Positions 883-20,694 of a DNA stretch of 22,064 nucleotides are shown one piece after another (within the stretch, counting starts at the first letter, position 1; every line of letters starts with the position of its first letter). Both the position numbers and the translations under genes were made by a program. The DNA is from a virus. The stretch spans positions 1-22,064 of IMG/VR virus record IMGVR_UViG_3300023235_000151. The stretch is one strand, 5' to 3'. Under the pieces are notes generated by a model. That model did no database searches. It was not told the origin of the DNA and saw nothing but the letters and a program-made list of their open reading frames with translations.

Positions 883-890
883 TATAAATA
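883..890 (+). promoter_or_regulatory. T4-type late promoter TATAAATA
   Basis: Exact match to the T4 late promoter octamer, followed by GATC, in the 85-bp gap between two structural genes. Late transcription would start near 897-898, leaving a leader of about 60 nt before the gene at 957. In T4 this octamer is read by the gp55 sigma factor with gp33/gp45. Identity is by sequence match only. Confidence 0.75.
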
Positions 891-3516: not shown

Positions 3517-4010
3517 TGTTCGGCATCTTTTCATATGTAAAGATCGCAGTTGTAGTTATCATGATTGCTAGTATAGCTGGGGCAGGAACTTATGTTCTTA
3601 AGCTACGCGGTGACAATTCTGCTTTGAAGTTGAACAACCAAAAGCTTGAGATAGTAGTCGATAATCAAAAGACAGCATTAGAACAGCAAAAGATAGACTT
3701 TGCATCTATTCGAGCAGCTGTAGCTCAGCATGAGATAGTGAATAAGAAGCTCAAAGAAGAAGTTACAGCCCTCGAAAAGAAGTTCAATAAGATCAATGCA
3801 TCTGGAGAGAAGCGTGATCTTGGCGCTCTTGCTAAAGAGAGGCCAGCTCTAATCGAAAGAATTATAAATAGAGCAAGTATTAATGTTTTAAGATGTCTTG
3901 AAGTAAGTATGGGAGCGCCTCTAACTGAGGCTGAGCGCAATGCGACTAAGAAGTCTGAGATCAATCCAGAATGTACTGGCTTGGTCAATCCTAGTTTTAT
4001 TGACTATTAG
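3516..4010 (+). CDS. i-spanin (Rz-like inner-membrane lysis protein)
   Basis: A 164-residue protein with one N-terminal membrane segment (about 6-28) followed by a long Lys/Gln/Glu/Leu coiled coil (about 30-95) and a C-terminal region ending in a Cys-containing segment. This is the architecture of i-spanins, which span the periplasm and pair with an outer-membrane lipoprotein to fuse the two membranes. Its ATG shares one base with the endolysin stop (TAATG). The o-spanin gene begins inside its 3' end in another frame, a classical Rz/Rz1-type overlap (71 bp). Confidence 0.8.
   Translation: MFGIFSYVKIAVVVIMIASIAGAGTYVLKLRGDNSALKLNNQKLEIVVDNQKTALEQQKIDFASIRAAVAQHEIVNKKLKEEVTALEKKFNKINASGEKRDLGALAKERPALIERIINRASINVLRCLEVSMGAPLTEAERNATKKSEINPECTGLVNPSFIDY
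3863..3870 (+). promoter_or_regulatory. Internal late promoter candidate TATAAATA
   Basis: Exact T4-type late octamer followed by GAGC, like the other two copies in the window, located inside the i-spanin gene 70 bp before the o-spanin start. It could add late transcripts for o-spanin and holin. It is in coding sequence, so a chance match is possible. Confidence 0.45.
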
Positions 4011-4600: not shown

Positions 4601-5028
4601 TAACTTCAATGAACGACGAACTCTTAAAGATTAGAGAAGAGATCTCTAGTCTTAAAAAGGATGGCGAGGTTGTTAATCTTCTAGTAAGTAGACTAGACAT
4701 AGCTCTTGACAAGCTTACAGATGTATTCACCGGTATCAGTAAGATCATGGCTGTTCACGAAATTAGACTAGAGCAGAATGAAAAGACAAATGAGTCTATT
4801 CTAAAACTTTCAGAAGAACGCCGCAAAGAGACAAAGTTAGAGCTTACAATACTCAAAGAAGCTCTTACTGAAAAACTAGATAATCATCACCATAGCCATA
4901 GTGAGTCTATAAAGAGAATAGCTGAGCGCACTTCTTCTCTAGAGAAGTGGAAGTGGTACGCTATTGGTATAGCTGGTGGCGGTTTCTTTGCGCTTACTCA
5001 ATTAGATAAGATTTTCAAACTTTTTTAA
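4582..5028 (+). CDS. Coiled-coil protein with C-terminal membrane anchor
   Basis: A 148-residue protein: Lys/Glu/Leu heptads over most of its length (about 10-115), a His-rich patch (DNHHHSHSES, about 100-109), then KWKWYAIGIAGGGFFAL (about 122-138) as a single C-terminal membrane segment. This resembles XhlA/haemolysin-type proteins that work with holins. ATG 4582 lies inside the holin-like gene; a second ATG at 4609 is possible. Last gene of the lysis cassette; the run of T at 5021-5026 has no GC-rich stem before it, so no clear terminator. Confidence 0.6.
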   Translation: MDEQKVVTSMNDELLKIREEISSLKKDGEVVNLLVSRLDIALDKLTDVFTGISKIMAVHEIRLEQNEKTNESILKLSEERRKETKLELTILKEALTEKLDNHHHSHSESIKRIAERTSSLEKWKWYAIGIAGGGFFALTQLDKIFKLF

Positions 5029-5035
5029 TTAGGCG

Positions 5036-5063
5036 TTTACTTTACTAATCGAGATGATATAAT
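5036..5063 (+). promoter_or_regulatory. Sigma70-type promoter for the replication/nucleotide operon
   Basis: TTTACT (5036-5041), 16-bp spacer, perfect TATAAT (5058-5063). Transcription would start near 5070, about 14 nt before the primase ATG. It separates the late lysis genes from the early/middle metabolic genes, the expected place for a host-type promoter. Confidence 0.6.
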
Positions 5064-5083
5064 GCTATCTTGGTTGGTGAAGA

Positions 5084-6106
5084 ATGATCTGGGTAGACGT
5101 CAAGTACGCAAATTTGCTTTCTGTACAGTTGGACCTTTACAAGGTTAAGCAGCAAAGTCCGTATCTTGCGAGTTTTCGTTGCCCGATCTGCGGCGATAGC
5201 CGTAAAAGCCGCACTAAAACGCGCGGCTTTTTTTATGCTAATGGAAACGATTTGTGGTTTAAGTGTCACAACTGTCAAGCGGCACACCACTTCAATACTT
5301 TCCTCAAGATAACTAATGAAGATCTTTATAAACAGTATGCTATGGAGGTTTTTCGTGAGAAACACGGAGAACGAAAGCTTAACACAGAACCCGCTACTTA
5401 CGAGTTTGATCCGCCAGATTTCTCTGCTGCAGGACTACTCGATCGAATGCTTCCCCGTATATCATCTCTCCCCAAATGTCACGAGGCCGTTGAGTACTGC
5501 AGAAAGAGAAATTTACCGAGAGATTCGCTCGATCGCCTCTACTTCATTGAACACTCCTTTGACATCGCAAGGATCGCCGATCGATACGAAGGAATCATCA
5601 CGGGCAAAGAACCAAGGATTGTCATCCCCGCTTATAGCCGTGGTGGATTACTAACAGGAATTACCTGTAGAGCTATTCGTGGAGAAGAGCAGAGATACGT
5701 TGTTGCTAGGCTTAACGAACAAGAACCCATGGTCCATTTCATTGACGAAGTAGACTTCAGACAGAGAGTATATGTATTAGAAGGAGCGTTTGATGCGCTC
5801 TTCATCAAGAATTCAGTAGCAGTCGGCGGCAGCGACTTGAAGAAAGTTATGCGTGTTTTGACTCATGTCGATGTGGCTCTTATTTTCGATAATCAGCCGA
5901 GGAATAAAGAAGTAGTCAAAATCATGGAACGGACAGCCAAACTTGGTTATCCAATCGTTGTATGGCCAGACACAATTAATGGTAAAGACATAAATGAAAT
6001 GATTGAAAATGGAATGACTCGAGATAGTGTTATGGAAGTGATAAATACAAACACATTCCAAGGACTATCTCTAGTAGCAAAACTTGGAAAATGGAGAAAA
6101 CGTTGA
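5084..6106 (+). CDS. DNA primase, T4 gp61-like
   Basis: Makes RNA primers for lagging-strand synthesis at the phage fork, normally with a gp41-type helicase. The 340-residue length matches T4 gp61 (342). Zinc-binding module: C33, C36 (CPIC) and C61, C64 (CHNC). TOPRIM-type signature: VYVLEGAFDALF (229-240, E233) and an acidic ALIFDNQ motif (265-271, D269). The Shine-Dalgarno site is weak (GGTGAAG). It is the first gene after a consensus promoter, and a terminator-like hairpin lies at codons 41-51. The TTG of the next gene overlaps its stop. Confidence 0.9.
   Translation: MIWVDVKYANLLSVQLDLYKVKQQSPYLASFRCPICGDSRKSRTKTRGFFYANGNDLWFKCHNCQAAHHFNTFLKITNEDLYKQYAMEVFREKHGERKLNTEPATYEFDPPDFSAAGLLDRMLPRISSLPKCHEAVEYCRKRNLPRDSLDRLYFIEHSFDIARIADRYEGIITGKEPRIVIPAYSRGGLLTGITCRAIRGEEQRYVVARLNEQEPMVHFIDEVDFRQRVYVLEGAFDALFIKNSVAVGGSDLKKVMRVLTHVDVALIFDNQPRNKEVVKIMERTAKLGYPIVVWPDTINGKDINEMIENGMTRDSVMEVINTNTFQGLSLVAKLGKWRKR
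5204..5234 (+). terminator. Terminator-like hairpin inside the primase gene
   Basis: AAAAGCCGC (5204-5212) pairs perfectly with GCGGCTTTT (5223-5231) across a 10-nt loop and runs into seven T residues (5228-5234). It lies about 135 nt after the predicted transcription start, within the zinc-binding module coding sequence. As RNA it has every part of an intrinsic terminator or attenuator, although it is also constrained by codons. Confidence 0.5.
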
Positions 6107-6328
6107 CGGGCACTAAAAAAGAGTTCAAAGAACTTTTAGCTAAAGTTGATTATGAAGGTGGATGGGAATCGATGCTTAACTACAGCGATCCACCAAACAT
6201 ATATAAGTTTCCTAGTATCGCTAAGATTTGGGACAAAATTAAAGTTTGAGTTTGAAGAGCTCGAAGGTGAGATTAATTTTTATGCAAATGAACTCGGACT
6301 CGAGCTAGACAATATGGATGGTATGTAA
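6103..6328 (+). pseudogene. Small ORF split by a +1 frameshift
   Basis: TTG 6103 overlaps the primase stop and has GGAG 6 nt upstream (6093-6096). The first frame reads about 48 residues (TKKEFKELLAKVDYEGGW early on) and stops at TGA 6247. Directly there the +1 frame carries a plausible continuation, KFEFEELEGEINFYANEL to TAA 6326-6328. The junction is GTT TGA G: skipping one base after AAA gives a 75-residue product. Either a real mutation, a sequencing error or stop-associated +1 frameshifting. The ATG at 6146 in the second frame gives an unconvincing N-terminus. Family not recognised. Confidence 0.5.
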
Positions 6329-6329
6329 G

Positions 6330-7016
6330 ATGAACCCGTTTCCACATCAGAAAGTCTCTGTCGTCTCGTTTACGATCCCGTTCATCGAGGGTTGTGAGAC
6401 TCCAGAAGAGTTGATATCATATACTGCCCGCGTATCTAACCCAGGAAATCAGAACAATAAAGAGACATCTGAAAAATTAGTTGGCTATCTGATGCGCAAT
6501 GCGCACTGGTCTCCGTTCGAGATGGTAGATGTAACAATGGACTTATGGATGACCAGAGATATCGGTCGTCAAATTTTACGCCATCGCTCGTTCGTCTTCC
6601 AAGAGTTCAGTCAGCGCTATGCAGACCCGACAAAGATGGAATTCGCGCAACGCGAAGCTCGTCTTCAAGACACGAAGAATCGTCAAAACTCTGTTGAAAT
6701 CGACGATAATGACTTGCAAGCTTTGTTTAATCAACGTCAGCAAGAAGTATGTTTTGCCGCAATCGAAGCCTATAGGTGGGCGCTTGAAAACGGTATTGCT
6801 AAAGAACAGGCTCGAGTATTTTTGCCTGAAGGTTTGACAATGAGCCATATGTATATGAAAGGCTCAGTGAGAAGTTGGATTCACTATCTTCAGCTTCGAC
6901 TTGGTAATGGAACTCAAAAAGAACATCGTGAGTTAGCAAAAATGATTGCTGCTGAATTACAAACGGTGCTTCCATCAATTATCAAGTCGACGCAAGGAGA
7001 AGAATGGAATACTTAG
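6330..7016 (+). CDS. thyX: Flavin-dependent thymidylate synthase ThyX
   Basis: Converts dUMP to dTMP using methylene-tetrahydrofolate, FAD and NADPH. The ThyX signature RHRxxSxxxxSxR is present as RHRSFVFQEFSQR (residues 84-96 from ATG 6330). Conserved flanks include HWSPFE (59-64), PEGL and the SWIHYLQLR segment near the C-terminus. Length of about 228 residues fits the family. ATG 6318 is an alternative start four codons upstream; neither has a clear Shine-Dalgarno site. Its stop overlaps nrdA by 13 bp, so dTMP and dNTP synthesis are probably co-expressed. Confidence 0.93.
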   Translation: MNPFPHQKVSVVSFTIPFIEGCETPEELISYTARVSNPGNQNNKETSEKLVGYLMRNAHWSPFEMVDVTMDLWMTRDIGRQILRHRSFVFQEFSQRYADPTKMEFAQREARLQDTKNRQNSVEIDDNDLQALFNQRQQEVCFAAIEAYRWALENGIAKEQARVFLPEGLTMSHMYMKGSVRSWIHYLQLRLGNGTQKEHRELAKMIAAELQTVLPSIIKSTQGEEWNT

Positions 7017-8794
7017 GAATAGAGCTTTCTCCACAAAGAGATATTTTGTTCGATGAGTACGGTGTTAAGCGTTTAAGAGAATCCTACATGGCGGAGAACG
7101 AATCGTCTCCTCAGGAGCGACTCGCTTTCGTCTCAAAGACATTTTCAAGTAACCCAGAGCACGCTCAGCGACTCTATGATTACGCATCAAAACATTGGCT
7201 GTCTTATTCGACTCCAATCTTATCTTTTGGACGTTCAAAGCGCGGGCTTCCAATTTCGTGCTACTTAAACTACATTGAAGATACGGCTGAAGGTCTTGTT
7301 CAAAATTTGAGCGAGACTAACTGGCTGTCTATGATGGGTGGCGGTGTTGGGATTGGTTTCGGAATTCGTAGCGCAGACGACAAATCAACTGGCGTCATGC
7401 CGCATCTTAAGATGTACGATGCGTCTTCACTAGCCTATAGACAGGGAAATACTCGTAGAGGTTCTTACGCAGTCTATCTGGATATAGATCATCCAGATAT
7501 TATGCAATTTCTCGAAATGAGAAAGGGAACTGGCGATCAAAACTATAGATGTCTGAATTTGCATCACGCAGTTAACATTCCTGATACGTTCATGACGATC
7601 ATCGAGAAATGCATGATCGATCCAGAAGCTGATGACTCTTGGAACCTTGTAGATCCACATAGTCGCGAAGTTAAAGAGACTGTGTCGGCGAAAGAACTGT
7701 GGCAGAAGATCATTGACTTGCGAATGCAGACCGGCGAGCCGTACATGCATTTCATCGACCAATCTAATAACCAGATGCCAGATTGGCTGAAGGATAAGGG
7801 ACTGAAGATTTATCAGTCTAATCTCTGTAGTGAGATCACTCTTCCTACTTCTAAAGACCGAACTGCTGTGTGCTGTCTTTCTTCAGTAAACCTTGAGTAT
7901 TATGATGATTGGAGCAAGAACAAGCTCTTCCTTAAAGATATCGCTGAGATGCTAGATAATGTTCTTCAATACTTTATCGATAATGCTCCAAACGAGATTG
8001 CTCGAGCGAAATACTCTGCAGAACAAGAGCGAAGCATTGGTGTCGGAGCTCTTGGTCTTCATGCGTACTTTCAGAAGAATAATATTCCGTTTGAGAGCGC
8101 GCTAGCTAAGTCACGCAACATGGTCATGTTCAAGCATATCAGAACTTCTCTTAACAAAGCTAATAAAGAGCTTGGAGAAGAGAGAGGTTCAGCTCCTGAT
8201 GCAGAGTCTGTAGGTCTTCGGTTTAGCCATGTTATGGCAATTGCGCCAAATGCTTCGAGTAGTATTATCATGGGTAATACTAGCCCGTCCATCGAACCAC
8301 TTAGAGCTAATGCATATCGCCAAGATACTTTGTCTGGATCATTCTTAAACAAGAACAAGTTCTTAGACGTAGTAATTAAGCGCTATTGTAACATCGACGA
8401 GAAGTTGAACTATGCTGATGTGTGGTCGTCTATTATCAGTAGTGATGGTTCAGTCCAGCATTTGAAGTTCTTAACCGATGATGAGAAGGACGTGTTCAAG
8501 ACTGCTATGGAGATTGATCAGAGATGGATTGTTGATCTAGCCGCTGATCGTCAAAAATTTATTGATCAGTCGCAAAGTGTTAACGTGTTCTTTAGACCAA
8601 ACGCGAACATCAAGTATCTTCATGCTGTCCACTTCATGGCGTGGAAGCTCGGTATGAAGACTCTCTATTATTGTCGTTCAGAAAAAATTGGTAAGGCTGA
8701 CAAGATTGCTAGTCGCATCGAACGTGACATCATTAAAGAGATTGATATGGCTGAAGTCGCAGCAGGAGAGACCTGCTTGGCGTGTGAAGGATAA
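7004..8794 (+). CDS. nrdA: Ribonucleotide reductase class I, alpha subunit
   Basis: Catalytic subunit reducing NDPs to dNDPs. Key residues are visible: C86 in PISCYLNY and C290/C291 in AVCCLSS (redox pair), thiyl-radical C275 and E277 in NLCSEI, and the C-terminal relay cysteines C591 and C594 (TCLACEG). At 596 residues it is shorter than E. coli NrdA (761) because the N-terminal ATP-cone allosteric domain is absent, so dATP inhibition is probably lost. The start overlaps thyX and has AAGGAGAAG just upstream. It forms an operon with nrdB. Confidence 0.95.
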   Translation: MEYLGIELSPQRDILFDEYGVKRLRESYMAENESSPQERLAFVSKTFSSNPEHAQRLYDYASKHWLSYSTPILSFGRSKRGLPISCYLNYIEDTAEGLVQNLSETNWLSMMGGGVGIGFGIRSADDKSTGVMPHLKMYDASSLAYRQGNTRRGSYAVYLDIDHPDIMQFLEMRKGTGDQNYRCLNLHHAVNIPDTFMTIIEKCMIDPEADDSWNLVDPHSREVKETVSAKELWQKIIDLRMQTGEPYMHFIDQSNNQMPDWLKDKGLKIYQSNLCSEITLPTSKDRTAVCCLSSVNLEYYDDWSKNKLFLKDIAEMLDNVLQYFIDNAPNEIARAKYSAEQERSIGVGALGLHAYFQKNNIPFESALAKSRNMVMFKHIRTSLNKANKELGEERGSAPDAESVGLRFSHVMAIAPNASSSIIMGNTSPSIEPLRANAYRQDTLSGSFLNKNKFLDVVIKRYCNIDEKLNYADVWSSIISSDGSVQHLKFLTDDEKDVFKTAMEIDQRWIVDLAADRQKFIDQSQSVNVFFRPNANIKYLHAVHFMAWKLGMKTLYYCRSEKIGKADKIASRIERDIIKEIDMAEVAAGETCLACEG

Positions 8795-8818
8795 CTCGAT
8801 AAGAACAGGTAGTTGAGA

Positions 8819-9028
8819 ATGAGAGACCAAACTATTGAAGAGCTAGCGATCGAAGAATGTCCGTTTTTGTGGACTAAGGAGCGCATGATGATCTACGTAC
8901 TTAGACGTACACTCCCTTTGAAAATAGCTCAAGATATCGTTGATGTTCAGCCGATGCCGAATGTTGACCTGAAAGCTATAGCCCGACACTCGTTGTGGCA
9001 GTCATATTGGAGAAGACACTTTGGTTAA
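8819..9028 (+). CDS. Small hypothetical protein between nrdA and nrdB
   Basis: A 69-residue protein (starts MRDQTIEEL) separating the two RNR subunit genes. ATG 8819 has AGG 9 nt upstream; an in-frame TTG at 8813 is a less likely start. The sequence is helical with no recognised motif. Its last 8 bp overlap the TTG start of nrdB and it carries the nrdB Shine-Dalgarno site, so it may be needed for coupled translation. Function unknown. Confidence 0.65.
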   Translation: MRDQTIEELAIEECPFLWTKERMMIYVLRRTLPLKIAQDIVDVQPMPNVDLKAIARHSLWQSYWRRHFG

Positions 9029-9992
9029 GACAAAATTACAGGATAGTAGAGACTCATTCAAACCCTTCAATTATCCATGGGCTTACGATACGTGGCTTAA
9101 GCACGAGCAGTCTCATTGGCTTCACACTGAAGTTCCACTCATCGAAGACATCAAAGATTGGAAGAATCGGCTTACAGTAGAAGAGAAATACTTCTTAACT
9201 CAGATCTTTAGATTCTTCACTCAGTCTGATATCGACGTTGCTGGTGGATATGTGAAGAACTATCTTCCAAACTTTCCACAACCAGAAGTACGAATGATGT
9301 TGATGGGATTTGCTGCCAGAGAAGCTCTTCATATTGCTGCGTATAGTCATTTGATCGAGACTCTTGGAATGTCAGAAGGTATCTACAATGAGTTCCTCGA
9401 ATACGATGCTATGAGAGAGAAGCATGATTATTTTCTTGACAAGGTAGAGAATAACGCGGTTTTGCCTGTAAAAATCGCAGCAATTAGCGCATTCACAGAA
9501 GGTCTAGCTCTGTTTAGTTCGTTCATTATGCTCTTAAACTTCCCGCGCCATGGTAAGATGCGTGGTATGGGTCAGATCATAACTTGGTCTATCGTAGACG
9601 AAACTATGCATGCCGAAGGAATGATCAAACTCTTTAGAACATACATTGAAGAAAATAGAGAAGTTTGGAATGACTCAACTAAGAAACAGATCTACGACAT
9701 CGCTGAAAAGATGGTGAAGCTTGAAGATGACTTTGTTGATCTAGCATTTAAGATGGGTAAGATAGAGGGACTTCGCATTGAGGAAGTTAAACAATACATC
9801 CGGTACATTGCAGATCGCAGACTCATTTCTATGGGGCTTAGAGGGATATTCAAAGTTAAGAAGAACCCGCTTCCTTGGGTCGAAGAAATGATCAACGCGC
9901 CAACTCATACAAATTTTTTCGAAAATCGCGCAACTGATTATGCCCGTGGAGCTACACAGGGCGATTGGTCTGACGTCTGGGCAGATAAATAA
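9021..9992 (+). CDS. nrdB: Ribonucleotide reductase class I, beta subunit
   Basis: Holds the di-metal centre and tyrosyl radical for NrdA. Metal ligands are recognisable: D70 (TQSDIDVAG), E101 and H104 with radical Y108 (REALHIAAY), E160 (FTEGLALF), E194 and H197 (DETMHAEG). The 323-residue length is within the family range. The start is TTG 9021 with GGAG 8 nt upstream (9009-9012); no nearby ATG gives a full N-terminus. The C-terminal tail ends GDWSDVWADK, fitting the region that docks on NrdA. Confidence 0.93.
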   Translation: MVKTKLQDSRDSFKPFNYPWAYDTWLKHEQSHWLHTEVPLIEDIKDWKNRLTVEEKYFLTQIFRFFTQSDIDVAGGYVKNYLPNFPQPEVRMMLMGFAAREALHIAAYSHLIETLGMSEGIYNEFLEYDAMREKHDYFLDKVENNAVLPVKIAAISAFTEGLALFSSFIMLLNFPRHGKMRGMGQIITWSIVDETMHAEGMIKLFRTYIEENREVWNDSTKKQIYDIAEKMVKLEDDFVDLAFKMGKIEGLRIEEVKQYIRYIADRRLISMGLRGIFKVKKNPLPWVEEMINAPTHTNFFENRATDYARGATQGDWSDVWADK

Positions 9993-9996
9993 GAGG

Positions 9997-10185
9997 ATGA
10001 GTAATCCAATCCTTACCAGTAAGTGCACTAACTGCGAAGCTGAGTTCGACCTTGAATGGTTTGATGCAGAGTATGAGGCAGAGTTCTGTCCATTTTGTGG
10101 TGAAAGCCTAGACACCGAAGAAGAGCTTGATGAAGAAATTTATTATGACGATGGTGTTGGTGAGGAGAACATAGAAGATTTTTAA
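9997..10185 (+). CDS. Small zinc-ribbon protein
   Basis: A 62-residue protein with two cysteine pairs, CTNC (12-15 region) and CPFC (about 36-39), the layout of a zinc ribbon, followed by a very acidic tail (EEELDEEIYYDDGVGEENIE). ATG 9997 is preceded directly by AAGAGG with no spacing, so another start is possible; the frame is open back to 9940 inside nrdB. GATAAATA at 9984-9991 is a one-mismatch late octamer. It may bind nucleic acid or polymerase; this is a guess. Confidence 0.7.
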   Translation: MSNPILTSKCTNCEAEFDLEWFDAEYEAEFCPFCGESLDTEEELDEEIYYDDGVGEENIEDF

Positions 10186-10602
10186 GTGTACGAAAACCCG
10201 TGGCTTTTTAACGGAGTTCCGTATGACAGTCCAGATAAGTTTGCTGGTTTTGTCTACTTAATTACAAACAAACTCGACGGCAGACGATACATAGGTCGTA
10301 AGTACTTCTGGTCTATTAGGAAGCAGAAGGGTAAGAAGAGACGTCAACGTTCAGAAAGCGATTGGCGCGAGTATTACGGGTCATCGCAAGAGCTTCTTGC
10401 AGATATTGAGAAGCTTGGAGAAGAAAACTTTGAAAGGAGAATTCTCTCTCTGCATACGACTCGGGGTGATGTAAATTACGAGGAAGTACGACAACAGTTT
10501 CTCCTCGGTGTATTAGAAAGTGATGAATGGTACAATGAAGCAATTGGAAAATACCGACGAAAGCCACAACACATCGTCGAAGGACGCCGCTACTCTTCCT
10601 AA
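10186..10602 (+). CDS. GIY-YIG endonuclease-like protein, T4-superfamily type
   Basis: A 138-residue protein with the GIY-YIG core as GFVYLITN (21-28) and YIGRKYF (35-41), then a Lys/Arg-rich KKRRQRSESDWREYYGS segment. This combination is, from memory, conserved in many T4-like phages as a putative endonuclease of unclear role, larger than the minimal domain. GTG 10186 follows the previous stop directly; GAGGAG lies about 18 nt upstream, so translation may depend on coupling. It overlaps the methyltransferase gene by 80 bp in another frame. Confidence 0.75.
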   Translation: MYENPWLFNGVPYDSPDKFAGFVYLITNKLDGRRYIGRKYFWSIRKQKGKKRRQRSESDWREYYGSSQELLADIEKLGEENFERRILSLHTTRGDVNYEEVRQQFLLGVLESDEWYNEAIGKYRRKPQHIVEGRRYSS

Positions 10603-11149
10603 TCATCTCGGCTGTCATCTAAACAAAGTGCATACAGATCGTGGAACTCTCTATTATTTGATAGAGATGTTTCAAATCAAGTCAATGCTTGATATCGGCT
10701 GTGGACCAGGAGACATGGTTCGTATTGCTAAACACCGAGGCCTTGATGCTATTGGTATTGATGGTGACTTTACTCTCAAATTCAAAGACAGTAAAGTATT
10801 AATCCATGATTTTTGTACAGGTCCAGCCGACCTTGGCGATTCTAAATTCGATCTAGCGTGGTCAGTAGAATTTCTTGAACACGTTGATGAGAAGTACGTT
10901 GATAACTACATGCGAGCATTTGCTCGTTGTAAGTACGCAATTGTTACTGCTGCTCCTCCAGGTCACGGCAGTCATCATCATGTCAATGAGCAGCCAAAAG
11001 AATATTGGATAAAAACTTTTGCTAAGTACGGCTTTACATTTTCAGAGACTTTTACGAAAGAGATTCGAGAAAACCGTAGTAACATGCGTAAACCGTTTAT
11101 GCAGAAGAATGGTCTTTTCTTTATCAATACTGAGAACAATGGAAGATAG
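10523..11149 (+). CDS. SAM-dependent methyltransferase
   Basis: Class I methyltransferase fold: motif I DIGCGPG (57-63) binds S-adenosylmethionine, an acidic residue follows the next strand (GIDGD, about 77-81), and EFLEHVDE (about 116-123) matches the post-motif region typical of small-molecule methyltransferases. Substrate unknown; the glycosyltransferase genes downstream suggest a sugar or glycan. Start uncertain: GTG 10520, ATG 10523 and ATG 10535 are all possible and all lie inside the previous gene. The first conserved block begins near residue 26. Overlaps the next gene by 11 bp. Confidence 0.8.
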   Translation: MNGTMKQLENTDESHNTSSKDAATLPNHLGCHLNKVHTDRGTLYYLIEMFQIKSMLDIGCGPGDMVRIAKHRGLDAIGIDGDFTLKFKDSKVLIHDFCTGPADLGDSKFDLAWSVEFLEHVDEKYVDNYMRAFARCKYAIVTAAPPGHGSHHHVNEQPKEYWIKTFAKYGFTFSETFTKEIRENRSNMRKPFMQKNGLFFINTENNGR

Positions 11150-11942
11150 AATCAAACTATTCGTCGGTTGCTCTCCAAACGGAGAAGACGCTGAATCTAT
11201 GGCTGTTCTCGAATATACAGCAAAAAAGAACAGTTCATTGCCAGTTGATATTACTTGGATGAAGATTAGCGAAGATCCAGAATCTCCATGGGGCGGGTGG
11301 AACACAACTACTTGGTCTACTCCATTCAGCGGATTTCGATGGGCGATCCCCGAAGTCTGTGGCTTCGAAGGTCAAGCGATCTATATGGATAGCGATATGA
11401 TCATCCTAGGAGATTTAGCTGAGCTATGGAACGCTCCTTTCAAGCCAGGAAAAATCGTTCAGGCTAAAGGCGGCTGGCGTTTTTGCGTAGCTAAATGGGA
11501 CTGTGCAGCAGCAAAAAGTTTCATTATGCCGATCAACAGAATGAAGAAGCTACCTGAAGCTCATCAAAGGATGTTCAGTATTCTGAATGCTAAAGAGCAT
11601 TTAGTTCAAGTCTTTGATCGCCAATGGAACAACTTCGATGGTGAGAACGATAAGCTTGAAGACATTAAGATCTTACATTACACAGATATGTCAACTCAGC
11701 CGCATTTAGCTATGGCTCTTGAGAGATTAGAAGCTAGAGGACGACATCATTGGTTTGATGGAGACTTAAGACGCCATAGAAGAGAAGACGTGATCGAACT
11801 CTTTATGAAAGAGTACCGCGAAGCTGTAGAAGCCGGTTACACTGTTGACACGTACGAGCCAGATGACGTAATCGATTTTGTAAAGCTATCACAGAGAGGT
11901 TATGTAGCAGCAAACGGCTTTGATGTTACAAGAGGTGAATAA
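11139..11942 (+). CDS. Glycosyltransferase, GT8-like
   Basis: A 267-residue predicted nucleotide-sugar transferase. YMDSDMIILGDLAELW (82-97) contains the DxD metal and sugar-nucleotide motif (D84, D86) in the context typical of GT8-like enzymes. Conserved-looking blocks: FVGCSPNGED at the N-terminus and TPFSGFRWAIPEVCG (61-75). ATG 11139 is chosen because the frame before it overlaps the methyltransferase and is unlike protein. One of three consecutive transferases that may decorate phage DNA, virion or host surface glycans; no target can be read from sequence. Confidence 0.8.
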   Translation: MEDRIKLFVGCSPNGEDAESMAVLEYTAKKNSSLPVDITWMKISEDPESPWGGWNTTTWSTPFSGFRWAIPEVCGFEGQAIYMDSDMIILGDLAELWNAPFKPGKIVQAKGGWRFCVAKWDCAAAKSFIMPINRMKKLPEAHQRMFSILNAKEHLVQVFDRQWNNFDGENDKLEDIKILHYTDMSTQPHLAMALERLEARGRHHWFDGDLRRHRREDVIELFMKEYREAVEAGYTVDTYEPDDVIDFVKLSQRGYVAANGFDVTRGE

Positions 11943-12727
11943 TGAAAATTGAGATGCCAAAAGTAGCGAAAGACTTGCTGGGGAAGACATCAGTTCTATA
12001 TTGTTCTTGCGATTCAATCTACTTTAGAGAACACGCTTCGATATTAGCGGCAAGCGCTCAAGTAAATAAGACTGACTTGCATATCAACGTAGTAAATGCA
12101 GATAAGGGTGCTCAAGATTTTCTTCTAGCTGGAGTTATTGAGCGCTCGATGCCATATGTTACTGTTAGCTTTTCTACTGCTGATTTAACTGGAGTCGATG
12201 CTAGAACATATTTTTCATGCGATAGATTTATAACAGCATCAGCGATTATGGAGCACGTAGAACGTGTTATGATTATTGATGCTGATTGTTTGATTATGAG
12301 TCCTGTTAATTGGTCAGCCTTTGAAAACGCTGACTATTCTCTTTTTACTCGCGATCCTCTCCCAGGAACTACTGGCATCGAACATATTGGTACAAAGGTG
12401 GCTGCTGGTTGTGTGTACGCTGCTGGCGACAAGGGAAGACGGTTTCTTGAAACTGTATCAGATACGTTGAGACGTAGTAATCTTCGTTGGTTCATAGACC
12501 AATATGTTCTTTGGTCTGTTCATGAGAAGTGGCAGAACGCTGATATCATTTTCAAGCAAGTTCCTGATGAATTCATTGACTGGGATTTCCGAAAGGACAC
12601 CACGATCTGGACTGGTAAAGGTCCGCGCAAATACGAAAACCCGCAGTATTTAGAAGCTAAAGCTCAATACGAGCGTATATATGAAACGATCATCAAAGGA
12701 GGAGCAATTGCGAGTCTTATTCCTTAA
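11942..12727 (+). CDS. Second glycosyltransferase, GT8-like
   Basis: A 261-residue protein sharing the general fold signature of the previous gene: IIDADCLIM (111-119) with DxD at D113/D115 and an acceptor region with WFIDQYVLW (about 183-191). ATG shares one base with the upstream stop (TAATG) and has AGGTG 7 nt upstream. It is too divergent from its neighbour to be a recent duplicate. Its last 20 bp hold the Shine-Dalgarno site and start of the next gene. Likely acts with its neighbours on one glycan. Confidence 0.75.
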   Translation: MKIEMPKVAKDLLGKTSVLYCSCDSIYFREHASILAASAQVNKTDLHINVVNADKGAQDFLLAGVIERSMPYVTVSFSTADLTGVDARTYFSCDRFITASAIMEHVERVMIIDADCLIMSPVNWSAFENADYSLFTRDPLPGTTGIEHIGTKVAAGCVYAAGDKGRRFLETVSDTLRRSNLRWFIDQYVLWSVHEKWQNADIIFKQVPDEFIDWDFRKDTTIWTGKGPRKYENPQYLEAKAQYERIYETIIKGGAIASLIP

Positions 12728-13727
12728 GCCTAGGCTCGACGTCACGTTCAAGCAGGGTTTTGTACCAGAGCAGCGCGGTCCTATTCCTCCGATTAGAGAA
12801 CATTGGAAACGCTTCGCTGAAATGTGCGAAGTCCTTTTGAGCACATCAAATGCTGTTACTAAATATGATAGCGTTGAGATGCCTCTATGGCAGATCACTC
12901 CTGAGTTTGCTATGAGTTACAAACCCGACGTTGTATTTGTTCCTCATCGTGAGGACCACAACTTTGAGTTACCTCCTCACGTAGCTGTCTATTACTATAT
13001 GCAGATGGTCTTACCTTGGCTGTTTCAGATTGATAAGAAGGGCTGGTGTGGTGGAGCCAGCGTTTATCCAATAGCTCCAGATTATGACAACCCAATCGCT
13101 CTGTTCAACAAGATGAAAGAAGAGCTGATTGTTAAAAACGTAAGCAAGTTTGATCAACCTCCAGTACGTAATCTCGTTTTACCAGATCAATTTATTTTCT
13201 TTCCATGTCAGATTCCTCACGACCAAACGATTCAATACCACTCTAAAGTATCTGTAGTTGAAGCTCTAAAAGACGCTCTAAAATTCGGGCGTAGCATTGA
13301 TGTACCGGTCATTGTTAAAGGGCACCCAGTTAATCCAGGTTCTATGGTAGAACTTAGAGACGTGTTTGTTTCTAATCGACGTGCTGAAGATGAGTGGTAT
13401 GACAATGCGTCGATTCATGAGTTGCTAAGCAAGTGCGCAGCTATGTTCACAGTCAATTCTGGTACAGGAATCGAAGCTGTGCTCCACGAAAAACCAATCT
13501 ATACGTATGGCAAAGCTGAGTATGATCATGTAGCGCATAGAGTAACTAATGAATATCCAGGCGTTCAATGGTCTAAGAGATATCAAAAAGTCTTTTCATA
13601 CCCAGGCTTCTTCAATGCTTGGTATAAATCTATGATGGACACGAACAAGATCATTGCTGATCAGTCTGATAGACTAAAAAATGCTAACCCAGTGCTTTTT
13701 AATGTTGACATTAGCAAGCAACTTTGA
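12708..13727 (+). CDS. Capsule-polysaccharide-type transferase (KpsC/KpsS-like)
   Basis: A 339-residue protein. VIVKGHPVNP (201-210) and MFTVNSGTGIEAVLHEKPI (246-264) resemble the capsule polysaccharide biosynthesis family that includes KDO transferases, where KGHP and NSxxGxEA are conserved. The start is TTG 12708: AAAGGAGG lies 5 nt upstream (12695-12702) and gives the N-terminus RVLFLKPRLD; the frame before it lies inside the previous gene. A sigma70 promoter begins inside its last codons. Role in modifying a phage or host glycan is inferred from family and neighbours. Confidence 0.7.
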   Translation: MRVLFLKPRLDVTFKQGFVPEQRGPIPPIREHWKRFAEMCEVLLSTSNAVTKYDSVEMPLWQITPEFAMSYKPDVVFVPHREDHNFELPPHVAVYYYMQMVLPWLFQIDKKGWCGGASVYPIAPDYDNPIALFNKMKEELIVKNVSKFDQPPVRNLVLPDQFIFFPCQIPHDQTIQYHSKVSVVEALKDALKFGRSIDVPVIVKGHPVNPGSMVELRDVFVSNRRAEDEWYDNASIHELLSKCAAMFTVNSGTGIEAVLHEKPIYTYGKAEYDHVAHRVTNEYPGVQWSKRYQKVFSYPGFFNAWYKSMMDTNKIIADQSDRLKNANPVLFNVDISKQL

Positions 13728-13733
13728 TAGTAT
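13705..13733 (+). promoter_or_regulatory. Strong sigma70 promoter TTGACA-N17-TAGTAT
   Basis: Perfect -35 (13705-13710), 17-bp spacer and TAGTAT -10 (13728-13733), overlapping the end of the preceding gene. The start of transcription falls near 13740, exactly where a long hairpin begins. Confidence 0.65.
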
Positions 13734-13739
13734 AAACAC

Positions 13740-13834
13740 ATTGGAAGATTAGACGCCACGTAGAGACGCACGCAATCCGGTGGGTATAAATTGTTCAACT
13801 CTTGTAGTTGGATGTTATCATCTAATCTTCCAAA
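13740..13834 (+). ncRNA. Promoter-proximal structured small RNA candidate
   Basis: Ends of this 95-nt stretch form a perfect 13-bp helix: TTGGAAGATTAGA (13741-13753) with TCTAATCTTCCAA (13821-13833). Inside, TTCAACT (13794-13800) pairs with AGTTGGA (13806-13812) across loop CTTGT, and CCAC with GTGG can pair. The outer helix starts at the predicted +1 of a strong promoter. No long ORF and no canonical tRNA arms. There is no clear U-tract directly after it, so the 3' end is uncertain. Confidence 0.5.
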
Positions 13835-13861
13835 AAAGTTTTATCTTTAGTGAAGTTTTTG

Positions 13862-13889
13862 TTGACACTGAAGATATATAGTATAGAAT
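13862..13889 (+). promoter_or_regulatory. Strong sigma70 promoter TTGACA-N16-TAGAAT
   Basis: Perfect -35 (13862-13867) and TAGAAT -10 (13884-13889). Transcription should begin at about 13896, at or next to ATG 13897. Confidence 0.65.
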
Positions 13890-13896
13890 GTTAAAC

Positions 13897-14013
13897 ATGA
13901 AGAAACAAAGATCGAATATGCTTTCACGTCCCGCCACATATTGGCAGAATTCGGAGTCTACCAAGACCCTGTTTGCGTCATGTGGAAATGATGAAGGCGT
14001 AGCAATAATTTAG
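13897..14013 (+). CDS. Possible leaderless 38-aa peptide gene
   Basis: ATG sits at the predicted transcription start with no Shine-Dalgarno site, the frame runs 38 codons (MKKQRSNML at the start), and the stop codon abuts a tandem hairpin and terminator, giving a self-contained promoter-gene-terminator unit. The same DNA can also fold as RNA (13920-13926 with 13992-13998; CCACAT 13934-13939 with ATGTGG 13980-13985), so a roughly 175-nt small RNA is the main alternative. No family recognised. Confidence 0.35.
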   Translation: MKKQRSNMLSRPATYWQNSESTKTLFASCGNDEGVAII

Positions 14014-14073
14014 GTCACCAAGAGTAGAAATACGAGCTCTTAGGTGGCCCACCAAGTAATTGGTGGGTTTTTT
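14013..14073 (+). terminator. Tandem hairpins ending in an intrinsic terminator
   Basis: A first hairpin pairs GGTCACC+AAGAG (14013-14024 region) with CTCTT+GGTGGCC, one base bulged. It is followed by CCCACCAA (14048-14055), loop GTAA, TTGGTGGG (14060-14067) and six T. The second stem is perfect and is the best intrinsic terminator in the window. Confidence 0.85.
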
Positions 14074-14080
14074 ATTAGGT

Positions 14081-14330
14081 GGTAGCGGAACGAGGCTGCA
14101 AGACGCCACCTTAAACAAAGTCTGAACGGGCGGCCCTGAGGATGAAACCCTAATAGACTGGGGGAGTAAAATTCGGGCGATATGATTAGCTGCACAATAG
14201 TGTAGTAGTCTAGTGGGATAGCAAACGACTGCGTCCGCGACTGGTATTTGCTCGCTATGCGAGCGGCTTGCGAAGAGCAAGCGATTATGGTGGGGGGTGC
14301 GGATCCACACTAAACTAACGCACACCAAAT
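14081..14330 (+). other. Structured non-coding stretch with a possible pseudoknot
   Basis: About 250 bp without a convincing gene. Visible structure: GGTGG/CCACC around 14080-14113; GCTCGC (14250-14255) with GCGAGC (14259-14264); GCTTGC (14266-14271) with GCAAGC (14277-14282); GGGTGCG (14295-14301) with CGCAC-A-CC (14319-14326), after which A completes CCA; and TAGTGT (14198-14203) with ACACTA (14307-14312), which falls in the previous hairpin's loop. A D-arm-like TAGTCTAGTGGGATAG occurs at 14206. It could be a remodelled tRNA-like RNA. No T-loop TTC motif is present. Confidence 0.4.
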
Positions 14331-14333
14331 TTT

Positions 14334-14410
14334 GGCAGGGTGGAGCAGTGGTCAGCTCGTCTGGTTCATACCCAGGAGGTCGCGGTGTTCGAATCCCGCC
14401 CCTGCAACCA
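14334..14410 (+). tRNA. tRNA-fMet(CAT), initiator type
   Basis: 77 nt with encoded CCA. Anticodon loop TTCATAC. Initiator hallmarks: the 1-72 pair is a G x A mismatch, D-stem GAGC/GCTC carries A11-U24, and the body closely follows E. coli tRNA-fMet (TGGAGCAG, AGCTCGTC). The anticodon stem has G-C at two of the three classical positions; the third is U-A. Confidence 0.9.
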
Positions 14411-14416
14411 ATAACG

Positions 14417-14450
14417 GGTTAGGAAAGTCGCGAGCTGCGGCAGACTAACC
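14417..14450 (+). other. Short hairpin in the fMet-Tyr spacer
   Basis: GGTTAG (14417-14422) pairs with CTAACC (14445-14450) around a GC-rich loop. It may be a processing element or a short RNA; nothing else is recognisable in the 50-bp spacer. Confidence 0.3.
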
Positions 14451-14460
14451 GATCTTCAAT

Positions 14461-14544
14461 GGATAGGCATTCCCAGGAGAGATAAGCTGGCTGTAAACCA
14501 GTGGCCTTTGCGCTGAGTAGGTTCGAATCCTACCCTATTCACCA
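14461..14544 (+). tRNA. tRNA-Tyr(GTA)
   Basis: 84 nt with CCA. Acceptor GGATAGG/CCTATTC, anticodon loop CTGTAAA, and a long variable arm (GGCCTTTGCGCTG) as expected of bacterial tRNA-Tyr. T-arm GTAGGTTCGAATCCTAC is canonical. Confidence 0.92.
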
Positions 14545-14676
14545 CTTAGTGGTTTTCGAAAACAGCTAGACCATGTCAACGGTATCTCGACTGATCATAG
14601 GCTAGAGAACCTCCGGTTGCTCTGTCCTAACTGCCATTCGCAGACACCAACTTGGTGTGGTCGCAACAAGTAATAT
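14545..14676 (+). other. Hairpin-rich tRNA spacer
   Basis: 132 bp without a gene. Hairpins: GGT-A-TCTC pairing with GAGAACC (14580-14612 region), CTGC/GCAG with loop CATTC, and ACACC/GGTGT with loop AACTT (14644-14658). TTTTCGAAAA near 14553 is palindromic. No tRNA or ORF recognised. Confidence 0.3.
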
Positions 14677-14766
14677 GGAAGAATGGCAGAGTCTGACTTA
14701 ATGCACTCGCCTTGAAAGCGAGAGAACCGAAAGGTTCCGTGGGTTTGAATCCCACTTCTTCCGCCA
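14677..14766 (+). tRNA. tRNA-Ser(TGA)
   Basis: 90 nt with CCA. Acceptor GGAAGAA/TTCTTCC, anticodon loop CTTGAAA, class II variable arm GAACCGAAAGGTTC, discriminator G73. Canonical serine tRNA for UCA codons. Confidence 0.94.
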
Positions 14767-14771
14767 ACAAC

Positions 14772-14843
14772 GTGCAGAGATGCGGACTTCAATCCGCCTG
14801 GACACAACTGTGTCTTGTCTTCTAAGAGTTAAGGATACTGTAC
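14772..14843 (+). ncRNA. Cloverleaf RNA resembling a circularly permuted tRNA, copy 1
   Basis: Closing stem GTGCAG (14772-14777)/CTGTAC (14838-14843). Inside, in order: 4-nt linker; hairpin GCGGA/TCCGC with loop CTTCAA (14782-14797); hairpin GACAC/GTGTC with loop AACT (14801-14814); TC; hairpin TTCT/AGGA (14820-14835). Read as a permuted tRNA these are anticodon stem, variable loop, T-arm, joined acceptor strands, positions 8-9 and D-arm, with near-tRNA spacing. A related copy lies 176 bp downstream. The T-loop has 6 nt and there is no CCA, so function is uncertain. Confidence 0.5.
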
Positions 14844-14854
14844 ATCACAACAAC

Positions 14855-14942
14855 GGTTAGTTGACAGAGCGGTCGATTGTGCTCGCCTGGAAAGCGAGTG
14901 GACTGAAAGGTCCCAGAGGTTCGAATCCTCTACTAACCGCCA
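14855..14942 (+). tRNA. tRNA-Ser(GGA)
   Basis: 88 nt with CCA. Acceptor GGTTAGT/ACTAACC, anticodon loop CTGGAAA, variable arm GGACTGAAAGGTCC, G73. Class II serine tRNA for UCC/UCU. Confidence 0.94.
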
Positions 14943-14947
14943 CTAAT

Positions 14948-15017
14948 GTGCAGAGACGCGGACTTCAATCCGTCGGGACACTATGCGTCTTGTCGTCTAA
15001 GAGTTAGGATACTGCGC
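14948..15017 (+). ncRNA. Cloverleaf RNA resembling a circularly permuted tRNA, copy 2
   Basis: About 80 percent identical to copy 1. Closing stem GTGCAG (14948-14953)/CTGCGC (15012-15017): compared with copy 1, two bases of the 3' strand change (TA to CG) yet both pair with the same 5' strand. T-arm-like hairpin GCGGA/TCCGT with the same loop CTTCAA (14958-14973). Acceptor-like helix CGGGAC (14974-14979)/GTCTTG (14987-14992). D-arm-like GTCTAAGAGTTAGGAT follows TC. It lies between two tRNA-Ser genes like copy 1. Confidence 0.5.
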
Positions 15018-15124: not shown

Positions 15125-15153
15125 CTATAAGTTACCTAGAACTTCCTGGTCTT

Positions 15154-15204
15154 ATGAGTCATAGTACTCATGAGATCAAGGTGACTCACAAAACTCGGTG
15201 AGTC
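15154..15204 (+). other. Two hairpins upstream of tRNA-Pro
   Basis: ATGAGT (15154-15159)/ACTCAT (15166-15171) and a perfect 7-bp GACTCAC (15183-15189)/GTGAGTC (15198-15204). The spacer 15125-15229 contains no ORF or tRNA. Possibly processing signals or a small RNA. Confidence 0.3.
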
Positions 15205-15229: not shown

Positions 15230-15304
15230 CCGGGTGTGTCGGGAGTCTGGTATCCGACCTTGTTTGGAACGAGGGGCACGCAGGTTCAAATCCTGTCGCC
15301 CGGA
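15230..15304 (+). tRNA. tRNA-Pro(TGG), no encoded CCA
   Basis: Acceptor CCGGGTG/CGCCCGG, anticodon loop TTTGGAA in stem CCTTG/CGAGG, T-arm GCAGGTTCAAATCCTGT, discriminator A73. The gene ends A-CAT instead of A-CCA, so host CCA-adding enzyme would be needed. The other Pro tRNA ends the same way. Confidence 0.88.
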
Positions 15305-15311
15305 CATCGCA

Positions 15312-15369
15312 CCCGTTGGTACTAAGTATCGAACTCTATAAATAGAGCGAATACGGAGTACCAACGGGG
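15312..15369 (+). promoter_or_regulatory. RBS-masking hairpin containing a late promoter
   Basis: CCCGTTGGTACT (15312-15323) pairs perfectly with AGTACCAACGGG (15357-15368). The right arm contains the GGGG that serves as Shine-Dalgarno site for TTG 15375. The loop holds CTCTAT/ATAGAG and an exact late octamer TATAAATA (15337-15344). Transcripts from upstream would mask the site; late transcripts starting near 15351 would lack the left arm and expose it. This is the known design of T4 genes such as soc, e, 49 and the I-TevI gene. Confidence 0.75.
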
Positions 15370-15374
15370 TAGTT

Positions 15375-15602
15375 TTGAAGTACCTAGTCTACATGATCAC
15401 AAACAAAGTCAATGGAAAGCGATATATCGGCTGCCATAAGACCGATGATGTAGATGACGGGTACATGGGTTCCGGAAAGTTAATCCGTCGAGCCATCAAG
15501 AAGTACGGTAGCGAGAACTTCGCCAAAGAAGTTCTCGCTACTTTCAAAAATGACTCTGAAAATAAAAAGATTCGTCACTCAGACGCGATACCGATCGGTT
15601 AG
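15375..15602 (+). CDS. GIY-YIG homing-endonuclease-like protein, short
   Basis: Starts at TTG 15375; the 75 residues begin KYLVYMITNKVNGKRYIGC, with VYM as the GIY equivalent (5-7) and YIG at 17-19, then the family-typical DGYMGSGKLIRRAIKKYG (28-45). Relatives, from memory, continue with a further 60-100 residues and often a zinc-binding or helix-turn-helix DNA-binding part; here the frame ends soon after ENFAKEVLATF, so it is probably C-terminally truncated. Expression seems gated by the upstream hairpin and late promoter. It sits among tRNA genes, a usual target zone for mobile nucleases. Confidence 0.75.
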   Translation: MKYLVYMITNKVNGKRYIGCHKTDDVDDGYMGSGKLIRRAIKKYGSENFAKEVLATFKNDSENKKIRHSDAIPIG

Positions 15603-17297: not shown

Positions 17298-17372
17298 TGT
17301 TCTTTAGTTCAATGGTTAGAACGCTCGGCCGATAACCGAGAGATCGTGGTTCGAATCCGCGAAGAACAACCA
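17298..17372 (+). tRNA. tRNA-Ile(GAT) with C33
   Basis: 75 nt with CCA. Acceptor TGTTCTT/AAGAACA, D-arm GTTCAATGGTTAGAAC, T-loop TTCGAAT. Anticodon loop CCGATAA in stem CTCGG/CCGAG: position 33 is C instead of the nearly invariant U. Confidence 0.88.
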
Positions 17373-17691: not shown

Positions 17692-17773
17692 GGGTATTGA
17701 GCTGAAAGTTAGCTGGGCTGGCACCACCCTCTTAAGGTGGATGCAAGAGGTTCGATTCCTCCAATACCCTCCA
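17692..17773 (+). tRNA. tRNA-Lys(CTT)
   Basis: 82 nt with CCA, 6 nt longer than usual. Acceptor GGGTATT/AATACCC, anticodon loop CTCTTAA in CCACC/GGTGG, T-loop TTCGATT, T73. The D-region is enlarged: GCTG pairs weakly with TGGC around a 14-nt loop holding an AGCT/AGCT repeat. Confidence 0.85.
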
Positions 17774-17786
17774 TTCCAGCATTAAA

Positions 17787-17830
17787 GTTTAAGTATCGAA
17801 CTCTATAATAGAGCGAATACTAGAACGGAG
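17787..17830 (+). repeat. Second copy of the hairpin-promoter element, before a TTG ORF
   Basis: Positions 17791-17820 repeat 15324-15354 (AAGTATCGAACTC and TAGAGCGAATAC shared) except that TATAAATA has become TATAATA. Outer stem GTTTAAGTAT (17787-17796) pairs with ATACTAGAAC (17817-17826) in nine of ten positions; CTCTA/TAGAG forms the apex. GGAG (17827-17830) follows directly. Same arrangement as upstream of the GIY-YIG gene, suggesting a repeated translational or promoter switch. Confidence 0.55.
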
Positions 17831-17842
17831 CTGTGTAGAAAC

Positions 17843-17908
17843 TTGAAGAACAAATTTACGGACTGCGAGCTGAATGGGATTGATTATTCAGGATACGCGG
17901 GTGTGTAG
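17843..17908 (+). CDS. Tiny TTG-start ORF after the hairpin repeat
   Basis: 21 codons from TTG 17843 (LKNKFTDCELNGIDYSGYAGV style product; 21 residues), stop TAG formed by tRNA-Lys positions 8-10. Called only because it sits where the GIY-YIG gene sits relative to the first hairpin copy; GGAG is 12 nt upstream, rather far. May be a leftover of a deleted gene. Confidence 0.25.
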   Translation: MKNKFTDCELNGIDYSGYAGV

Positions 17909-17980
17909 CTGAGAGCGACGTGGCGTCAAAACGGTCTTTTACACCGTATGCAAGAGGTTCGATTCCTCACACACCCTCCA
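17899..17980 (+). tRNA. tRNA-Lys(TTT)
   Basis: 82 nt with CCA. Acceptor GGGTGTG/CACACCC, anticodon loop CTTTTAC in ACGGT/ACCGT, T-loop TTCGATT, T73. Like Lys(CTT) it is about 6 nt long in the D-region, where GACG/CGTC makes an extra hairpin. Confidence 0.85.
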
Positions 17981-18071: not shown

Positions 18072-18194
18072 ATGAGATTAGCGCATAGGAACAATCCACT
18101 TATCCGTTGTTTCTATGTTGCTGGATTCGACACCCGGCCTGATGATAAGTGTAAGGCCAAGTGTAACGAGTTCAATAAGTTTATCCCCCGGTAG
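18072..18194 (+). CDS. Leaderless 40-aa peptide gene
   Basis: ATG lies 5 nt after the -10 box, so the message would start on the ATG; no Shine-Dalgarno site. The product (MRLAHRNNPLIRCFYVAGFD, then a Lys/Cys-rich half with CKAKC) is basic with three cysteines and reads like real protein. Its stop TAG is formed by tRNA-Arg positions 8-10, overlapping that tRNA by 10 bp. The DNA also encodes two hairpins with complementary loops (18084-18158). Function unknown. Confidence 0.45.
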   Translation: MRLAHRNNPLIRCFYVAGFDTRPDDKCKAKCNEFNKFIPR

Positions 18195-18288
18195 CTCAGC
18201 GGTACCGGAAGGTGAGCTCTTAATAGAGCAAGAGCGCTGTCCACTCGAGGGACAGAGGTCGGTGGTTCGAATCCATCCTGGGGGGCCA
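18185..18288 (+). tRNA. tRNA with D-loop insertion, probable Arg(TCG)
   Basis: 104 nt with CCA. Acceptor CCCCCGG/CTGGGGG; D-stem GCTC (18194-18197) and GAGC (18232-18235) are canonical if the 27 nt at 18205-18231 are removed. The insert contains GCTCT/AGAGC with loop TAAT, similar to the hairpin repeat at 17801. Anticodon arm CTGTCC/GGACAG has loop ACTCGAG (6-bp stem, C33), giving TCG; a 9-nt loop reading is equally possible. T-arm GGTGGTTCGAATCCATC is good, G73. Confidence 0.65.
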
Positions 18289-20604: not shown

Positions 20605-20694
20605 ACTATCGAAAGCTGGGCACCCTTTGTTTCGCTTTGTGTGAGAAAAAAAACCCGAGCTTCGAACTCACTTTAGGTGAGCCGAACATTTTAT
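20605..20694 (+). other. Spacer with CGAA-CTC-GAG hairpin
   Basis: CTCAC (20667-20671)/GTGAG (20677-20681) with loop TTTAG, extended by TTCG/CGAA around an AA bulge. The flanking CGAACTC...GAG(C)CGAA resembles the elements at 15330 and 17797 but lacks TATAAATA. Eight A (about 20646-20653) precede it. No gene. Confidence 0.3.

Follow-up and report, generated by a model that had tools for sequence, protein, structure and literature searches.

A hairpin enclosing a promoter-like string occurs twice in the tRNA array of the IMG/VR virus record IMGVR_UViG_3300023235_000151, once before a homing-endonuclease gene (copy 1) and once between two tRNA-Lys genes, where only a 21-codon frame follows (copy 2). 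The question raised by this locus is what copy 2 is and how it came to stand there. The analysis covered the whole record, 22,064 nt in length, which is referred to below as the window.

Results

Phage type and genomic setting

Genes for ribonucleotide reductase, primase and endolysin are present in the window, together with a tRNA array of 31 ARAGORN calls. A sister contig of 34.8 kb (L003) is 99.9% identical to the window over stretches of 8,176 and 1,774 nt and ends at window position 17322, short of copy 2. Because L003 encodes a gp45-type clamp, a gp44-type clamp loader, UvsX, a DnaB-type replicative helicase and a family-B polymerase, its gene content argues that the window phage is of the T4 type. 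The late sigma factor family, gp55, was found in seven of the 12 reductase-relative records and in all seven homing-gene-relative records searched, and was not found in the 34.8-kb fragment L003. A nucleotide search of phage records with window positions 5000 to 15000 gave no matches, and tRNA was the only Rfam family above its gathering score in the window and in the five leader loci tested, L003, L136, L147, L165 and L242.

The octamer TATAAATA, the T4 late promoter, lies at window positions 883-890 and 3863-3870, in each case approximately 74-77 nt 5′ of a gene (a 238-aa gene and a lipoprotein-like gene, spanin-type by position, respectively); the string at 3863-3870 is flanked by long complementary arms inside coding sequence. 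In L003, spacer repeats with a GCGGACTTCAATCCGC-type hairpin (7405-7475 and 7584-7655) lie between tRNA-Ser genes; we take this hairpin to be reminiscent of a selenocysteine-type anticodon arm.

Copy 1, the leader of a GIY-YIG gene

The features at copy 1 are as follows.

15230-15305, plus strand: tRNA-Pro(TGG), directly 5′ of copy 1, with CAT and not CCA after the discriminator
15312-15368, plus strand: copy 1 leader, with a 12-bp outer stem (15312-15323 with 15357-15368), the core at 15326-15354 and TATAAATA at 15337-15344
15366-15369, plus strand: GGGG, candidate ribosome site from the sequence, its first three bases within the 3′ arm
15375-15602, plus strand: GIY-YIG homing-endonuclease gene of 75 codons (phrog_314; Pfam SegE_GIY-YIG)

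The predicted fold of copy 1 has an energy of −32.7 kcal/mol (z −6.4), which was equalled by none of 200 shuffles, and all 12 positions of the outer stem are paired (P 5e-5 against random spacer pairs). In this fold the late promoter sits in the apical part of the hairpin. The predicted energy is −34.0 kcal/mol for read-through RNA and −6.9 kcal/mol for RNA starting at 15345; the hairpin would thus hold the ribosome site and is predicted to vanish in the late RNA. Copy 1 therefore has the endonuclease gene downstream and the late promoter within a hairpin that mark leaders of the segB/I-TevI type. A nucleotide search of phage records with copy 1 returned a single match (E 7). No known RNA family was assigned to it, as the two microRNA matches fell far below their gathering scores.

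Comparison with T4 segB and other known leaders

In PMC2988022 the late promoter is described as placed such that the late RNA loses a hairpin hiding the ribosome-binding site, for I-TevI, I-TevII, I-TevIII, segB and mobE of Aeromonas phage Aeh1; PMC3014915 calls the same control shown for mobE and implicated for segB. The closest parallel to copy 1 is T4 segB, a GIY-YIG gene between tRNA-Ile and tRNA-Arg. Its leader forms a hairpin of 18 pairs directly behind tRNA-Ile, TAGAAATA lying in the apical loop and the GIY-YIG gene coming next; like copy 1 it has the late promoter in the hairpin loop, an inner stem of the CTC..GAG type and the ribosome site in the 3′ part. It differs in that the start codon lies within the stem and in that the arm sequences are unrelated. 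Comparison of T4 with the empty sites of QL01 and fPSFA places the start of the segB cassette exactly after the tRNA-Ile discriminator base. The same tRNA-Ile/tRNA-Arg junction is occupied in L234 (HEMP5, 465-1189) by a phrog_15137 endonuclease with a hairpin of its own.

I-TevI, I-TevII, I-TevIII and mobE share with copy 1 a late promoter whose position leaves part of the ribosome-site hairpin out of the late RNA (PMC2988022), but they are intron-borne, or of the HNH type in nrd genes, and lie outside tRNA arrays. RNA structure likewise masks the ribosome site of the late genes e and soc of T4, and late promoters free that of gene e, according to PMC3014915 and PMC2988022; both, however, are ordinary phage genes and not homing genes.

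The core shared by copies 1 and 2

The features at and around copy 2 are as follows.

17692-17773, plus strand: tRNA-Lys, anticodon CTT by eye, directly 5′ of copy 2, with an encoded CCA (Rfam RF00005 at 17692-17770)
17787-17826, plus strand: weak outer pairing GTTTAA / TAGAAC around the core (P 0.28 outside the core)
17793-17820, plus strand: copy 2 core hairpin, GTATCGAA-CTCTA-TAA-TAGAG-CGAATAC
17804-17810, plus strand: TATAATA, a decayed late-promoter box from the sequence, where copy 1 has the octamer
17827-17908, plus strand: Shine-Dalgarno-like GGAG (17827-17830), TTG at 17843 and the 21-codon frame, read from the sequence
17899-17980, plus strand: tRNA-Lys, anticodon TTT by eye, 3′ of copy 2 (Rfam RF00005 at 17899-17977)

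Neither of the two flanking tRNA-Lys genes was called by ARAGORN. The copy 2 core, GTATCGAACTCTATAATAGAGCGAATAC, repeats 28 of the 29 letters of 15326-15354, and the one missing A turns the octamer of copy 1 into TATAATA, as the first-pass annotation had read it. Since shuffles give 0.00 expected matches to the copy 1 core, the repeat is real and beyond chance. The likeness is confined to a core of about 32 nt: downstream of it the similarity is unremarkable (P 0.36) and the start-codon region is not shared, while the upstream similarity (P 0.04) is due to the T arms of the tRNAs. Pattern scans found the exact core nowhere outside the window and its sister phage L003.

The description of copy 2 as a second hairpin-promoter element agrees with the comparative evidence, as this layout is found before GIY-YIG genes in many T4-type tRNA arrays, T4 segB among them. 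The Shine-Dalgarno-like site, the TTG and the short frame behind it are there as described. The fold of the copy 2 region is only slightly better than that of shuffled sequences (z −1.5, with 14 of 200 as good; z −1.3, with 21 of 200). Nine of ten complementary pairs in the outer stem had been taken to argue for selection on structure; approximately four of them lie in the shared core, and the arms beyond it pair like random spacer pairs (P 0.28), so the argument fails for this copy. In contrast to T4 segB and the I-TevI-type leaders, copy 2 has no stable hairpin including a ribosome site, no significant outer stem, no exact late promoter and no endonuclease gene behind it. Profile likeness to an endonuclease behind copy 2 did not exceed that of shuffles (P 0.50; HMM E 0.17), and neither the 21-codon frame nor the copy 2 region had matches in the phage collection and phage records. 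The string LNGIDYSG in the frame looks GIY-YIG-like by eye, but shuffles do equally well in 50% of cases and the frame was rejected as an endonuclease remnant. Also set aside were a sigma-70 promoter (no site called at copy 2), an intrinsic terminator, a GC stem with a T run behind it (no site called at either copy), and two matches in Campylobacterota MAGs, which lie inside coding frames and are attributed to chance.

A family of leaders in T4-type tRNA arrays

Upstream regions of 111 distinct GIY-YIG genes were assembled from protein searches and pattern scans. The exact octamer lies within 150 nt upstream in 52 of them, and a same-strand tRNA ends within 160 nt in 75. The median energy of the arms enclosing the octamer is −20.7 kcal/mol before GIY-YIG genes (n=50) and −12.9 kcal/mol elsewhere (n=246), as against −12.5 and −12.0 kcal/mol, respectively, for shuffles. 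Among 126 promoter-like sites at most 60 nt behind a tRNA, strong stems (score of at least 14) occur at 45 of the 72 linked to an endonuclease gene, at 4 of the 54 others and at none of the 126 shuffled sites. Three of these four precede endonuclease-like genes, one for a homing endonuclease of phrog_655, one for an HNH protein and one with only a weak HNH match; the fourth overlaps a tRNA end.

Covariation was assessed by comparing own with swapped arms, because the 3′ arms were not placed correctly when 25 leaders were aligned with MAFFT. In 36 of 39 leaders, with 31 distinct arms, the 5′ arm pairs with its own 3′ arm, compared with 6.0% of 1476 swapped pairs. Because the arms are private and yet paired with their own partners, structure is selected in the leader family, copy 1 (12/12, P 5e-5) included, though not demonstrably in copy 2. 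The proposal that relatives carry further copies with conserved pairing of the outer arms is borne out in part: no exact copy exists outside the sister phage, but there are many analogues in which the outer pairing is conserved.

One subgroup, the class II leaders, comprises 19 sites at 18 loci. Wherever an upstream tRNA was called (18 sites), the distance from its end to the start of the promoter is 16 nt; several loci are near-identical, and the 18 are therefore not independent cases. A GIY-YIG gene is present at every locus; gene-less leaders number none of 19, and loss of the gene alone is therefore uncommon or soon erased. One pattern scan yielded 14 stretches, of which five precede a GIY-YIG gene (two of them identical), one is L130 and eight are unrelated. 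Another yielded 29, with nine before a GIY-YIG gene (five distinct contexts) and 20 not; among the latter, the string in L259 also precedes a gene, but one missed by the GIY-YIG profile. L130 resembles a solo leader; its hairpin has 19 pairs and contains TATCGAACTATTATAAATAG, and the tRNA-Pro next to it is on the reverse strand. No clear solo copy behind a same-strand tRNA was found in the relatives examined.

Shortening of the endonuclease gene

Over 9,950 aligned nucleotides, the only differences between the window and L003 are four substitutions, one TA indel located in the loop of the copy 1 leader and an in-frame deletion of 381 nt (window 15548/15549, L003 8175-8555), by which the endonuclease is reduced from 202 codons in L003 to 75 in the window. 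Loss of the endonuclease is thus visible within one phage population. The promoter box of L003 is TCTAAATA, seven of the eight letters of the octamer. Window copy 1 therefore has an exact promoter and a shortened gene, L003 a seven-of-eight promoter and a full-length gene, and copy 2 neither.

A T-loop-like box 5′ of the promoter

The box TATCGAACT, 5′ of the promoter, is similar in its reverse complement to the T-loop of tRNAs (GTTCRAN). The consensus of the T-loop is GTTCRA, the reverse complement of T[CT]GAAC, and is visible in the tRNAs of the window. Among 70 leaders whose loci had been retrieved solely by protein similarity, 10 have T[CT]GAAC, mostly 7-8 nt 5′ of the promoter, compared with 5 of the 375 promoter-like sites that served as controls (Fisher 8e-6). 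In L244 and L248 an operator-like inverted repeat, GTTCGA..TCGAAC, lies directly 5′ of the late promoter of the GIY-YIG genes. The TATCGAAC group of enzymes includes that of L165.

Discussion

On balance, we think it somewhat probable that copy 1 is the segB-type leader of its GIY-YIG gene and that copy 2 is what decay has left of the leader of another gene of this kind, since lost, between the two tRNA-Lys genes. As modelled, a read-through transcript of the tRNA array would fold such that the 3′ arm hides the ribosome site and prevents synthesis of the nuclease. At late times of infection, initiation by the T4-type late RNA polymerase at TATAAATA in the hairpin loop would give a short transcript without the 5′ arm, leaving the ribosome site free and allowing the nuclease to be made. 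Such a gene lies with its leader exactly behind the 3′ end of a tRNA. Once the gene was lost the leader would drift, and copy 2 would have shed its promoter octamer and most of its outer stem while keeping the compact core. The layout, the predicted folds, the covariation across the family, the point of insertion and the shortening of the gene are results of the analysis, and from them we infer when transcription occurs, that a gene once followed copy 2 and in which order the losses took place. That this phage population loses such genes follows from the 381-nt in-frame deletion that separates the window from L003. A lost homing-nuclease gene had been proposed from the first reading of the locus, and the occurrence of the same layout before GIY-YIG genes in many T4-type tRNA arrays favours it, although nothing endonuclease-like lies behind copy 2. 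Against a lost gene, the CCA is intact in the tRNA-Lys that precedes copy 2, unlike in the tRNAs before copy 1 and T4 segB. The insignificant outer stem, the restriction of the similarity to the core, the rarity of gene-less leaders (0 of 19) and the failure to find gp55 in the L003 fragment also count against this reading, and the solo-like L130 counts for it. Further losses would also be needed to account for two faint core-like hairpins in the window, both gene-less:

18217-18229, plus strand: possible inner-hairpin relative, CTCTTAATAGAGC, within the D-arm insertion of a tRNA-Arg
20662-20686, plus strand: TCGAACTCACTTTAGGTGAGCCGAA, just before a tRNA-Arg, possibly a third copy that has diverged; two of its inner pairs are compensated, and it lacks a promoter box

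The relaxed pattern is expected 0.07 times per window for the match at 20662 and 0.02 times for that at 18217, both having been noticed after the fact. The latter belongs to tRNA-Arg(TCG) (18187-18288), in which a D-arm hairpin insertion of about 30 nt, GCTCTTAATAGAGC, resembles the inner hairpin of copy 2. These matches, and the sharp boundary of the copy 1/copy 2 similarity at the core, are what would be expected if a dispersed mobile hairpin of about 32 nt had been copied through the tRNA array independently of the endonuclease, with copy 1 supplying the promoter of the gene. We regard this as rather doubtful: in pattern scans the core is limited to the window and the sister phage, no duplication of a target site was seen, and the promoter-in-hairpin layout, with the TATCGAACT-TATAAATA string, precedes endonuclease genes in other phages. 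The copy count of such a palindrome (MITE/REP-like) would be two clear and two faint in the window. The related suggestion of a mobile regulatory cassette fits the recurrence of the core without its flanks but finds no clear solo copy behind a same-strand tRNA in the relatives examined, L130 lying beside a reverse-strand tRNA.

That copy 2 is a working regulatory site, which drives or gates tRNA-Lys and the later tRNAs or serves a 21-codon leader peptide, would agree with the retention of a TATAAT-like string, a Shine-Dalgarno-like site and the TTG, with tRNA-Lys directly next. The box departs from the late octamer, however, no sigma-70 site is called at copy 2 and the phage collection contains nothing related to the peptide, and such a role seems distinctly unlikely. 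Still less can be said for a hairpin that acts in RNA processing or as a spacer within the array, such as an RNase III-type site or a terminator. The array does contain other strong spacer hairpins, for example at 15142-15182 in the tRNA-Ser/tRNA-Pro interval (by eye), but there is no terminator-like call at either copy and a plain processing site has no need of 28 identical letters in 29; we consider this highly improbable.

The T-loop-like box allows a more speculative addition. I-TevI shuts off its own expression at an operator similar to its homing site (PMC2988022). By analogy, TATCGAACT could be an operator copied from the target of the enzyme, binding to the T arm of many tRNA genes leading to homing behind their 3′ ends and binding to the same letters over the late promoter to self-shutoff; copy 2 and other solo leaders would in that case serve as decoy operators or be scars of the gene. 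We consider this unlikely, but an operator role of the box would account for the settling of one enzyme family behind many different tRNAs.

The promoter-in-hairpin layout of the segB type is already known, and a gene-less leftover of it is a small novelty; among the titles and abstract openings surveyed, no description of gene-less leaders was found. The wider result concerns the family: segB-type control, known from a handful of T4-type genes, is common for homing genes that environmental T4-type phages carry in their tRNA arrays. The leaders covary strongly, and those of one subgroup stand at a constant position behind the tRNA. As one phage population holds both a copy without a gene and a gene shortened only recently, the cycle of invasion and decay of free-standing homing genes could be followed.
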